In this document: piece by piece, positions 35,098 through 53,301 of the stretch
How the letters are laid out: every line of letters starts with the position of its first letter
Numbering within the stretch: position 1 is the stretch's first letter
DNA from: an uncultured Hippea sp.
GTDB lineage: Bacteria; Campylobacterota_A; Desulfurellia; JAADFJ01
NCBI GenBank assembly: GCA_913009315.1
Contig: CAJVZA010000003.1
Span: forward strand, 1 to 54,849
DNA: 54,849 nucleotides
Direction of reading: 5' to 3'
Notes under the pieces: generated by a model
The model's input: the letters and a program-made list of their open reading frames with translations, nothing else
The model's database searches: none
What the model was told of the DNA's origin: nothing
Position numbers and translations under genes: made by a program

Positions 35098-35352
35098 ATG
35101 CCTAAAGTTGCGACAAAGCTTAGAATATCGAAAAAAGGCCAAATAAGTATTCCAAAGCGTGTACGAGAGAAATTAGGCATAGTTCCGGGAGATATGGTTG
35201 CCTTTGAACAAGTAGATGAAGGGTTTATCTTAAAAAAGAAGAAAACCGTATTTGATTATATAGGATGTATCCGGCCTAAGAAGGAGATAGACATCAAAGA
35301 GCTCATAGAAAAGGCAAGAAAGGAATCGGGAGCCAAAAGATCTCTGCTATAG
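35098..35352 (+). CDS. vapB: VapB-type antitoxin, AbrB/MazE swapped-hairpin family
   Basis: An 84-residue protein with the SpoVT-AbrB DNA-binding fold: ISKKGQISIPKRVREKLGI (residues 9-27) followed by PGDMVAFEQVDEGFILKKK. The C-terminal part (KEIDIKELIEKARKE) is the likely toxin-binding segment. AGGAGG precedes the ATG. The stop overlaps the next gene's GTG by one base. Confidence 0.88.
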   Translation: MPKVATKLRISKKGQISIPKRVREKLGIVPGDMVAFEQVDEGFILKKKKTVFDYIGCIRPKKEIDIKELIEKARKESGAKRSLL

Positions 35353-35756
35353 TGTTAGATACAAATTTTATATTATCTTTATTCATACAACGGCAATATA
35401 CAGATAGGGCAAAGGAGCTGCTGAATAAATTTATAGCAAACAAAAACAGGATTTTTGTGCCGCAGCAGGCTATTGCAGAAACCGTGTATGTGCTGGAAAA
35501 CATTCATAAAGCAGATAGCTCAATCGGAAAATTGTCAAAAAGGGAAATTAAGGAGATGTTAGAAAGCCTGATAGATACTCCAAAAATTAAAATAGAAAAA
35601 GAGATCCCGACAAGAGAGGCGTTGGATCTTTATCATCAATTGAATATCAGCTTTGGAGATTGCCTAATATACACAACGGCAAAGCAAAATCACATCAGTT
35701 CAATAGCCACCTTTGATGCGGATTTTGATAGATTGGATATAGAAATTGTGCATTAA
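35352..35756 (+). CDS. vapC: VapC-type PIN-domain ribonuclease toxin
   Basis: A 134-residue PIN-domain protein. Conserved acidic residues are in LDTNFIL (Asp 3), AIAETVYVLE (Glu near 42) and SFGDCLIYTTAKQ (Asp near 99), with ATFDADFDRL near 119-128. VapC toxins cut tRNA or other structured RNA. GTG start, coupled to vapB by a one-base overlap. Confidence 0.88.
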   Translation: MLDTNFILSLFIQRQYTDRAKELLNKFIANKNRIFVPQQAIAETVYVLENIHKADSSIGKLSKREIKEMLESLIDTPKIKIEKEIPTREALDLYHQLNISFGDCLIYTTAKQNHISSIATFDADFDRLDIEIVH

Positions 35757-36134
35757 CTGTCTCCATATTTGACATAGCTCCCTCCTTTTTTTGATTTGAA
35801 CTTATAATTTTATCCGTATCAGCTAAAACCGGCAGGCTTATTTCTCTGTCGTTGATTAAAAATAAAGGTATCTCTAAAAGTTCTATGCGGATCTACAGAA
35901 GACAGATATTAGAAGTGATATTTGATGAGCTGTTTTTTGAAGACTTTATGTATAGTTATTTTTCCAAACAATACCGGAACGAACGGTCGGAATACCGCAC
36001 TCAAAATCAATATCCTTGACCTTGAGTGTGAGGCATTCCTGCAATTTTGGTCCGCCTCTGTAAAATCCGCAAACCGTCTCAACCATGCAGGATAAAATAA
36101 CAGCATTTTCAACCATTTTGTTTCAATTATTCGC
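35757..36134. other. Gene-poor stretch between vapC and the isochorismatase-like gene
   Basis: No convincing gene is seen here. A 44-codon open frame from 35887 has no recognised family and no strong ribosome binding site. A GAGGGAGCT-like purine tract occurs near 35780 on the minus strand. The stretch looks like decayed intergenic or former gene sequence. Confidence 0.4.
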
Positions 36135-36164
36135 TTGACCTTTTAAACGAGAGGAAGGTATAAT
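36135..36164 (+). promoter_or_regulatory. Candidate promoter of the isochorismatase-like cassette
   Basis: TTGACC (36135-36140), an 18-base spacer and a perfect TATAAT (36159-36164). The ATG overlapping the -10 box (36163) has GAGGAAGG before it and opens a 22-codon frame that ends directly before the next gene, so a downstream leader peptide is conceivable. Confidence 0.5.
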
Positions 36165-36231
36165 GAAATGCTTTGGTAAAAAAGCGGCAGGCCGGATAAT
36201 ATATGATGTTATACCAATAAGGAGAATGTAA

Positions 36232-36813
36232 ATGGCAGATAATTCAACAACGGCGATACTTGTTGTCGAATTTCAAAAGACCTGGACGGAAAGAAGTTTT
36301 TTTCATGGGCTAATAAAGAAAGAATATGAATTAAAAAATGTATACCAAAATACGAAACAATTATTGGAAGTTGCTAGAAAAAATGGTCTTAAGATAATAC
36401 AGTCGCCTTTCATACTGGATAAAAATGACAAAGAAAGATATAAAAAAATCCCCTTTCTTCCAAAACTGTTTGGTCAATTTACTGCAAATACATGGAGGGC
36501 AGAATATACAGAAGGCATATTTGATAAATCTGACATTGAAGTAAAAGGAAGGACGGGATTTGATAATACTAAAGGTAGCAACCTTCAAAACATACTCAAA
36601 GAAAATAAAATTGAGAAAATATATTTTATAGGTTTTACGACCGACCACTGTGTGGCTGAAACTATGGATACGCTTTTGTCTAATGGGTATGGATGCATAT
36701 TAGTATCTGACTGTACGGCTACAAGAAATAGCAAATTACAGCAGAAAATTGAAAACAAGTACTTGTCTATTGAGAGTAAACAAATTATAGAAAAAATTGC
36801 AAATTTGGTATAA
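36232..36813 (+). CDS. Isochorismatase-like cysteine hydrolase (probable integron gene cassette)
   Basis: A 193-residue protein of the isochorismatase/nicotinamidase-like fold. The catalytic Cys is in TTDHCVAETMDTLLSNGY (near residue 140), a Lys is in the EVKGRTGFDNTKGS stretch, and the N-terminal catalytic Asp position reads Glu in ILVVEFQK (near residue 13), a conservative change. The substrate is unknown; amides and N-carbamoyl compounds are common for the family. TAAGGAG precedes the ATG. The stop codon lies inside the first core of an attC site, the hallmark of an integron cassette. Confidence 0.8.
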   Translation: MADNSTTAILVVEFQKTWTERSFFHGLIKKEYELKNVYQNTKQLLEVARKNGLKIIQSPFILDKNDKERYKKIPFLPKLFGQFTANTWRAEYTEGIFDKSDIEVKGRTGFDNTKGSNLQNILKENKIEKIYFIGFTTDHCVAETMDTLLSNGYGCILVSDCTATRNSKLQQKIENKYLSIESKQIIEKIANLV

Positions 36814-36879
36814 CAAGGCGCTGCACCTGACCGCCATTTCGCTACGCTCCATAGCGGCAGGTGAGCTTGGATGTTAGCG
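36808..36879 (+). other. attC recombination site (integron cassette, 59-base-element type)
   Basis: The site opens with GTATAAC (36808-36814) and closes with GTTAGCG (36873-36879), whose TAAC and GTTA cores pair. Between them ACCTG (36825-36829) pairs with CAGGT (36858-36862) and CCGC (36831-36834) with GCGG (36854-36857). One unpaired A (36830) is left as an extrahelical base. The loop contains a further CGCTA/TAGCG stem. The AACAAGGCGCTGCACCTGAC beginning is the common chromosomal-integron form. No integrase gene is in the window. Confidence 0.82.
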
Positions 36880-36916
36880 TAATGAGCTCATCTATCATTA
36901 TGGAGGTAAGAAAACT

Positions 36917-37882
36917 ATGGAAGAAAAACGCTATTGGGCAAGTAGTACTGATAAGGAAAATAGAGAACCTCTGTTTTCAGAATTACAAAACGGAAAAATT
37001 ACAAGACTAAATTCAGATTTTATCAGCGAGGGGACACGTTGTGCGGGATGGTTATACCGCCCCGTGGGCGCCGCAGAAACACCTATCGTTATTATGGGAC
37101 ACGGATTCGCGGCAGAGAGAACCTTTCGACTGCCGGCTTTTGCAGAGGCGTTTGCTAAAAAAGGCCTGTCGGTTTTTCTCTTTGATTACAGAAACTTTGG
37201 CGACAGTGACGGAGAACCACGGAACCTGGTCAATCCATTTCGTCATGTGGCGGATTGGAAATCTGCTATTGCTCATGTGCGTACGCTTCCGGGAATCAGC
37301 AAGATTGCACTCTGGGGGTCTTCATTCGGAGGCGGCCATGTCATCGTTGCAGCCTCGAAGGATCCCGAAATTGCGGCCATCATCGCCCAGGTGCCGTTTG
37401 TAGATAGTTTATCAACGGTATCCATGATCGGTTTCAAAAACACGTTAAAAGGATATATTGCCGGGTCCAGGGATGTCTTTCGAATGATCACCTTCCGTTC
37501 CCCCTATTTCATTCCTGTTGTGGCGGAACCGGATACCTATGCCGCTATGAACACGCCGGAGTCCAAAGCGGGTTACATGGCACTTATACCGGACGGTTCT
37601 TCGTGGGAAAACAAATGCCCTGCCAGGGTTATCTTTACGATGTCCGCATATCGGCCGATTTCTTATGCAAAGCATGTAAAATGTCCGGCATTGATTTTGA
37701 TGGCTGAACAGGATTCGTTAATCAAGCCCGAAGCTGTTGAAAAAACCGCCTCCCGGATCGAAAATGCTACCTTAGTTCGGTTGCCCTACAATCACTTTTC
37801 GGTGTATCGTGGAGAAGCATTTGATCATGTGTTGAAAATCGAGACTGATTTTCTCATGCAGCATTTGCTGGATTCTGTTTAA
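36917..37882 (+). CDS. Alpha/beta hydrolase
   Basis: A 321-residue alpha/beta-hydrolase-fold protein. The oxyanion motif is in MGHGFAAERTF (near residue 61). The nucleophile elbow GSSFGGG places the Ser near residue 136, an Asp is in LMAEQDSLIKPEAV near 265, and the final His is in LPYNHFSVYRG near 293. Physiological substrate unknown; DLH-like and peptidase-like members look similar. TGGAGG precedes the ATG. It starts 38 bases after the attC site, so it may be the next cassette, and its stop codon lies in GTTTAAC, which fits an attC core. GC content is higher than in the housekeeping genes. Confidence 0.85.
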   Translation: MEEKRYWASSTDKENREPLFSELQNGKITRLNSDFISEGTRCAGWLYRPVGAAETPIVIMGHGFAAERTFRLPAFAEAFAKKGLSVFLFDYRNFGDSDGEPRNLVNPFRHVADWKSAIAHVRTLPGISKIALWGSSFGGGHVIVAASKDPEIAAIIAQVPFVDSLSTVSMIGFKNTLKGYIAGSRDVFRMITFRSPYFIPVVAEPDTYAAMNTPESKAGYMALIPDGSSWENKCPARVIFTMSAYRPISYAKHVKCPALILMAEQDSLIKPEAVEKTASRIENATLVRLPYNHFSVYRGEAFDHVLKIETDFLMQHLLDSV

Positions 37883-51435: not shown

Positions 51436-51447
51436 ATCACTTTATTT

Positions 51448-51516
51448 GCGGTGATGGAGTTCGCCCAATCGCCTTTTTAGGCTGATAACTCCTGCAAACA
51501 ACAGTTATAAGGAGTT
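51448..51516 (+). promoter_or_regulatory. Fluoride riboswitch (crcB motif) with its expression platform
   Basis: The aptamer runs from GCGGTGATGGAGTTCGCC (51448-51465) through CCAATCGCC to GGCTGATAACTCCTGC (51479-51494). This matches the crcB consensus GGCGATGGAGTTCGCC ... GCTGATGACTCC. GGTGA pairs with TCGCC, GGAGTT (51455-51460) with AACTCC (51487-51492) as the long-range helix, and GCC/GGC closes the small hairpin. In the expression platform AACTCCT (51487-51493) is also perfectly complementary to AGGAGTT (51510-51516), the ribosome binding site of the next gene. Ligand binding would free the site, suggesting translational activation by fluoride. Confidence 0.88.
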
Positions 51517-51519
51517 GGC

Positions 51520-53301
51520 ATGTCGGGAAACCATATTGGCAAGAGCAAAACAGCCGAATATGATAAAGAAGATTTTTTGCATAACACCATAAAGTGCTCT
51601 ATAGATGTTCTTGCTGAATCGGATATTGATTTTGAGCAGGAGATTTTTAAACTTAAAGCAATAGATGATCGTTTGGAAAATGAACGCTTTCATCTCGCCG
51701 TTTTGGGGCAGTTCAAACGCGGAAAAAGTACCTTTGTCAACGCATTGATGGGCGAAGAAATCCTGCCCTCTTCTGTTTTGCCTCTTACTTCTATTCCAAC
51801 TTATATTCAGTTCGGCAAACAGCGTTCGGTTGAGATATCCTTTGATGACAAAAGTGATAAAGAAACTCTGACCGATGATTCCGCAAGCAATCTAAACAGT
51901 TTTCTTGCACGATATGTAACCGAATCATCGAACTCTAAAAATCACCTTAATGTATCGTATGTCAATGTTTTTTATCCTTCCGAACTCCTTGAGAACGGTA
52001 TTGTACTTATAGATACGCCGGGAATAGGTTCCGTGCACGAACATAATACTGAAGCAACACTCAATTTTCTGCCCCAGTGCGACGCAGCAATTTTTGTAGT
52101 TTCCGTTGACCCTCCAATAACAAAAACAGAGATTGAATTTTTAAAAAAGATAGAGCAGAGTATTCCCAAGTTATTTTTCGTTTTGAATAAAATTGATTAT
52201 TTAAAAGGGCAGGATCTAACGCTTTCGATAGAGTTTTTAAAAAAGACGCTCTATAACCGCAATCATGCAAACATTGATAATATCTCTATTTATCCTGTCT
52301 CCGCTCTGATGGGCATCAATGCTGTGAAAGAAAATGATGTACAGAAATTAAAAGAAAGCGGAATTTATGATTTTAAGACTGAACTAATCAATTTTTTTAA
52401 AGATAAAAAGAAGGCGCTGCTCAACGAAGCGCTTCAGAAAAAAACAGATAATATTCTGAAAGCAGTTAGAATGAAGATTGATCTCGCAATTAAAGCGCAG
52501 AGAATGCCGCTGGAGGAACTAAATAACTGCCTTAATCTGTTCAACGAAAAGCTTTCTGAAGTAGAGACTCAAAAGGTTGTTGCCAGTGATCTTTTGAGCG
52601 GAGACAAGAGACGTTTGACGGCATCATTAGAAGAGTATGCCGAAAAGTTACGCGGCGAGGCAAGGACATATTTAAAAACAATTATGAAAGAAGCCTTCGC
52701 AAAAAACGGTTCGGGCGAAATTGATTACGACACAATTTATAATGCGGTTGCGGAACCTATTCCATCATACTTTGAACATAAATTCGGTGAGCTTTTCGAT
52801 GAATTTAATTCCAGGATAACCGAAATATTAAATCGTCATAATCAAAAATTAAATACTCTGACGCAATCTGTCTGGCAAGCGGCGGCAGATATTTTCAGCA
52901 TCAGCTATTATCATTTTGAAGGTTCCGGAACTATTTCCGGCAGATACAAACCGTATTGGACTACACACAAATGGGATACAAGCTTTACCCCAAACCCGGA
53001 AGGTATGCTCGAGCATTTTTTGCCGCAGAAAATGAAGAGACTGAGTATCGCAAAACGTGTCAATAAACAGATAGATCTAATTGTAATGCATAATGTGGAG
53101 AACCTTCGCTTTTCCCTGATTCAGAATATAAATACTCTCTTTGCCTCTTTTGCGCAGACATTTGATCAGAATATTGAGGAAACCATATCAAATATAAAAA
53201 ATGTTATATCTGAAACGGTTGAAAAATATAAAAATAGAACAGAATCGTCAGAGAAAAGTATCGTGAATCTCCAATCGGTTTTAACTCGTCTCATGCGCTA
53301 A
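51520..53301 (+). CDS. Dynamin-family large GTPase
   Basis: A 593-residue bacterial dynamin-like protein. G1 is GQFKRGKST (residues 63-71), the G2 threonine is in VLPLTSIPTYIQFG, G3 is DTPGIGS (near 165), and G4 is NKIDYL (near 223). Long helical regions follow (for example LNNCLNLFNEKLSEVETQKV). A GRYKPYWTTHKWDTSFTPNP segment lies near 475 and a coiled-coil-like C-terminus ends the protein. No clear transmembrane helix is seen, so membrane contact may be peripheral. Bacterial dynamins remodel or seal membranes under stress. AAGGAGTT precedes the ATG and is the sequence targeted by the upstream fluoride riboswitch. Confidence 0.9.
   Translation: MSGNHIGKSKTAEYDKEDFLHNTIKCSIDVLAESDIDFEQEIFKLKAIDDRLENERFHLAVLGQFKRGKSTFVNALMGEEILPSSVLPLTSIPTYIQFGKQRSVEISFDDKSDKETLTDDSASNLNSFLARYVTESSNSKNHLNVSYVNVFYPSELLENGIVLIDTPGIGSVHEHNTEATLNFLPQCDAAIFVVSVDPPITKTEIEFLKKIEQSIPKLFFVLNKIDYLKGQDLTLSIEFLKKTLYNRNHANIDNISIYPVSALMGINAVKENDVQKLKESGIYDFKTELINFFKDKKKALLNEALQKKTDNILKAVRMKIDLAIKAQRMPLEELNNCLNLFNEKLSEVETQKVVASDLLSGDKRRLTASLEEYAEKLRGEARTYLKTIMKEAFAKNGSGEIDYDTIYNAVAEPIPSYFEHKFGELFDEFNSRITEILNRHNQKLNTLTQSVWQAAADIFSISYYHFEGSGTISGRYKPYWTTHKWDTSFTPNPEGMLEHFLPQKMKRLSIAKRVNKQIDLIVMHNVENLRFSLIQNINTLFASFAQTFDQNIEETISNIKNVISETVEKYKNRTESSEKSIVNLQSVLTRLMR

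Follow-up and report, generated by a model that had tools for sequence, protein, structure and literature searches.

A probable collapsed sedentary integron holding one attC-bearing cassette in an uncultured Hippea sp.

The 54,849-nucleotide stretch of DNA analysed here (the window) probably contains a collapsed sedentary integron, reduced to a scrap of the integrase gene intI, a promoter in the Pc position and a single cassette with its attC site (Table 1). An earlier note on this DNA had proposed an integron-type attC behind an isochorismatase-like gene. That claim is borne out by a covariance-model match (E 5.5e-4) and by the ends of the cassette, neither of which was available to its author. 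The relic is genuine but of an ordinary kind, left by a gene-capture system that is already known.

Table 1. Features of the integron relic and its surroundings (positions in the window)
Feature	Position	Strand	Basis or remark
Dispersed genomic repeat copy, overlapping the decayed end of intI	35804-35973		Sequence search
intI remnant, 58-aa open frame	35949-36122	-	Matches positions 126-160 of a six-IntI profile
Sigma-70-type promoter, TTGACC-18-TATAAT	36135-36164	+	11/12 consensus matches; function inferred from position only
5' recombination point GTTATAC	36208-36214	+	From its second base, the cassette's own R' half; complements R'' GTATAAC at 7/7 positions
Gene cassette, 665 bp, G^TTATACC to the G of the attC core	36209-36873	+	Homology limits against L052 and L053
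Isochorismatase-family hydrolase gene, 193 aa, stop codon inside R''	36232-36813	+	Open reading frame; PF00857, E 2.1e-24
attC as standing in the chromosome	36808-36879	+	Match to covariance model R1, E 5.5e-4

The attC site is an imperfect palindrome of about 72 nt, with the R'' box GTATAAC at 36808-36814 and the GTT cleavage core at 36873-36875. Its stem is long and imperfect and has extrahelical bases, in line with the earlier note, and the stop codon TAA of the hydrolase gene (36811-36813) does lie within the first core box. The conserved structure was scored with a covariance model of our own, R1. Its eight training sites all lie outside this genome: six came from class 1 plasmid integrons (loci L075, L076, L078 and L079) and one from each of two MAGs. 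They were cut to fixed-length arms and aligned without gaps. The annotated structure covaries strongly within these eight training sites. When both strands of the window were searched, the sole significant match was at 36811-36876 (23.6 bits), the runner-up having an E value of 2.1. Across the whole 1.74 Mb genome the site scored 26.7 bits and one on contig C23 scored 27.0, a tie for the top two places. In an alignment of 13 attC sites including that of the window, 86% of the cells were paired and covariation was 0.440, compared with 0.07-0.13 in slid controls, so that the attC structure has the support of compensatory changes. Rfam had no match at this location. The site is a real attC.

The fold of the 91-nt genomic stretch by itself proved nothing, because it was no better than that of shuffled sequences (z -0.3 for the top strand and -1.0 for the bottom strand). 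The two core boxes, R'' and R', which the earlier note took to be paired, are complementary at only four of seven positions in the chromosome; when the ends of the cassette are joined as a circle, R'' meets the cassette's own 5' end (36208-36214) and all seven positions pair. In this rejoined form the bottom strand folded at -16.3 kcal/mol (z -3.42), with no shuffle equally good, and the top strand slightly more weakly at -14.5 kcal/mol. An R' half at the 5' end of the cassette is what integron recombination at G^TT would predict. In the computed fold of the rejoined bottom strand the R and L boxes are paired, the spacer is left unpaired and some bases are extrahelical. These are the features by which IntI recognises an attC, and the site could therefore still be recombinable by an IntI acting in trans.

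Protein relatives of the hydrolase occur in 23 loci, and in two of the closest, L052 and L053, the gene is followed by an attC. The L052 DNA, from a MAG reported as actinobacterial, is 97% identical to that of the window and has an internal deletion in its attC. L053, from a MAG reported as Marinimicrobium, is 82% identical; its attC stem differs in sequence with the pairing kept. Homology of the window with both loci runs from the GTTAT core at 36208 to the inside of the attC, and these limits define the cassette. The earlier reading of the unit as a gene cassette was therefore right: it has one promoterless gene whose stop codon lies at the attC, and its homologues have the same core sites at their ends. 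The start of a third copy, L054, is likewise a GTTAAACC core, but this copy shows no attC. In the MAG reported as Marinimicrobium, the same cassette family lies between attC sites, and two intact intI genes are present. The 97% identity with L052, in a MAG reported from another phylum, is a direct trace of cassette exchange. The GTTATAC motif at 36208 is the only copy in 35701-36232 and one of four on the plus strand of the window.

The PF00857 domain confirms the isochorismatase-like assignment of the gene. Isochorismatase is also among the cassette annotations of the ACID database, with 22 cassettes (PMC2674596), the likeness to our cassette being at the level of annotation. In the subfamily that comprises the window gene and loci L052-L072, every homologue read apparently has Glu (VVEFQKTW) in place of the usual catalytic Asp; the Cys (DHCV) is kept, while the residue at the Lys position is variously K, Q, E, R or S. 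The catalytic triad of this subfamily is possibly altered, as judged by eye from loci found with the search seed EFQKTWTE, which biases the sample toward the Glu reading.

According to the earlier note there was no second attC or integrase nearby. The first part stands, as the next R1 match in the window was insignificant, but the second does not. A profile of six IntI proteins, run against the six-frame translation of the window, found one significant stretch, the minus-strand frame listed in Table 1 (E 5.8e-5; next match 1.2). This frame reads ..FYRGGPKLQECLTLKVKDIDFECGIPTVRSG.. and then reaches a stop codon, before which the Arg of the GLRL motif is replaced by Lys (GPKL). Its best NCBIfam match is TIGR02249 (integrase_gron; E 0.0024) and its best PDB match is IntI4 (E 0.024). 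Against mixed loci that included many Xer-type recombinases, the non-self matches with E below 0.1 were IntI genes or fragments. The scrap is short, with about 35 aligned residues, and its E values are modest outside the targeted six-IntI search. It lies 85 bp upstream of the cassette start, in divergent orientation, and we infer that it derives from the integrase that belonged to this integron. About 370 nt of N-terminal coding sequence are missing, more than these 85 bp could hold, so a deletion must have occurred between the scrap and the cassette, and the original attI may have been lost with it. By homology comparison and R1, the GTT at 36208 is a recombination point that has no recognisable attC to its left; no attI is recognisable either.

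The dispersed repeat at the decayed end of the scrap is about 100-165 nt long. Eight further partial copies occur in the same genome (on contigs C48, C2, C23, C7, C56, C58, C75 and C14) and four in a second genome, G001. A shared hairpin was predicted for the repeat, but it was no better than those of shuffled sequences, and Rfam had no match. A search for the empty site among close relatives did not find it, returning only copies of this repeat and, within the genus, a single weak match to attC.

In integrons a promoter lies near attI, and the majority of cassettes carry none (PMC8946536, PMC9024848). The earlier note had credited the hydrolase gene with a promoter of its own, which is unusual for a cassette. 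A promoter is indeed present, but the cassette begins only at 36209, and the promoter lies outside it, in the gap that separates the intI scrap from the insertion point. This boundary removes the puzzle, and the promoter stands in the Pc position of an integron.

These features suggest the following history. IntI would once have integrated the circular 665-bp cassette between the GTT on the attI side and the DNA now downstream. The divergent intI upstream would then have been eroded at both ends, with loss of the N-terminal part and of the C-terminal half, leaving a dead scrap, the promoter and one cassette with its attC. The hydrolase gene would now be fixed in place, and the promoter left behind may drive its expression. 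The cassette is most likely the first and only survivor of the decayed integron, although the layout is that of a MAG assembly, in which contigs may be misjoined. The region would thus exemplify how an integron ends, with its integrase dead, its last cassette retained and its promoter perhaps keeping that cassette expressed. Neither the decay nor the cassette exchange described here changes the understanding of integrons.

In its attC R and L boxes, its recombination at a GTT core, its promoterless gene and its divergent intI with a promoter between, the region resembles a sedentary chromosomal integron. It differs in having only a scrap of intI, one cassette and no recognisable attI. It falls short of a complete integron, since the window yielded no functional intI and retains only about profile positions 126-160. 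The term CALIN denotes a cluster of attC sites lacking an integron-integrase, and IntegronFinder 2.0 by default reports those with at least two attC (PMC9024848). The element is close to the single-attC case of this class, since its attC has no functional integrase nearby; it differs in falling short of the default number and in having an intI remnant beside the cassette.

The structure behind the hydrolase gene could in principle be a transcription terminator or another structured element, since it is an imperfect inverted repeat just 3' of a stop codon. We regard this as highly improbable. There is no T run and no terminator-like match, R1 identifies the structure as attC, and homologous genes in other MAGs are likewise followed by attC, in one case with a different stem in which pairing is kept. 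Cassette boundaries at the GTT core also contradict a terminator. The earlier suggestion of a lone or relocated cassette has more in its favour. An IntI encoded elsewhere could have inserted a single-attC CALIN at a secondary chromosomal site, and the intI-like scrap would then be a chance neighbour: the genome had at least one other intI (on contig C14) and attC sites on several contigs, the scrap is short, and a recognisable attI is absent. The scrap, however, is the sole IntI-like stretch in 55 kb, and it stands next to the start of the cassette, divergent from it as is canonical, with the promoter between. A collapsed integron is the likelier reading because the intI remnant and the Pc-position promoter are immediately upstream, and we consider a relocated cassette unlikely.

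A variant compatible with the collapsed integron would add a second survivor. The alpha/beta hydrolase gene at 36917-37882, oriented like the cassette, comes directly 3' of the attC. Its stop codon falls in GTTTAAC, an R''-like heptamer, and the gene could be the final cassette of this array, with its own attC decayed. R1 has no attC match there, heptamers of this kind often arise by chance, and the G+C content of this gene is 47%, against 34% in the cassette. We think it improbable that this gene belonged to the array.

The genome-wide search for intI and attC that the earlier note had proposed brought further remains of integrons to light. The assembly has 96 contigs, and no intact intI was found in it; as it is 87.6% complete, the missing part may hold one. 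The longest intI, at C14:32253-33195, is nearly full-length and frame-disrupted (longest piece 240 bits), and C-terminal fragments occur on contigs C69 and C50. Four other attC sites (one on C23, two on C1 and one on C69) and a half site on C10 were found. The two sites on C1 (C1:47396-48192; L003, L021) flank a MazE/PemK toxin-antitoxin pair at a distance of about 730 bp from each other and constitute a two-attC CALIN. Among 24 relatives within the genus or class, none had an intI above the family cut-off; some had partial matches and several had attC-like sites, which suggests that the decay of integrons may be common to the lineage as a whole. More tentatively, it is possible that the chromosomal integrons of the lineage have broken up into scattered single-attC cassettes, some beside dead intI scraps, that incoming integrases could still move in trans, an idea we hold as more doubtful than not.

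At the start of contig C23 (L002 1-300), one reading frame contains FFFNDTATTEIYTLSLHDALPI, which we take to be a phrase typical of untrimmed sequencing adapter, and this end of the contig is therefore probably contaminated. In the window, a MazE-type antitoxin and PIN-domain toxin pair (35098-35756) adjoins the integron relic in the orientation of the cassette and has no attC. Farther along, a fluoride riboswitch (RF01734) at 51441-51501 lies upstream of the open reading frame at 51520-53301.
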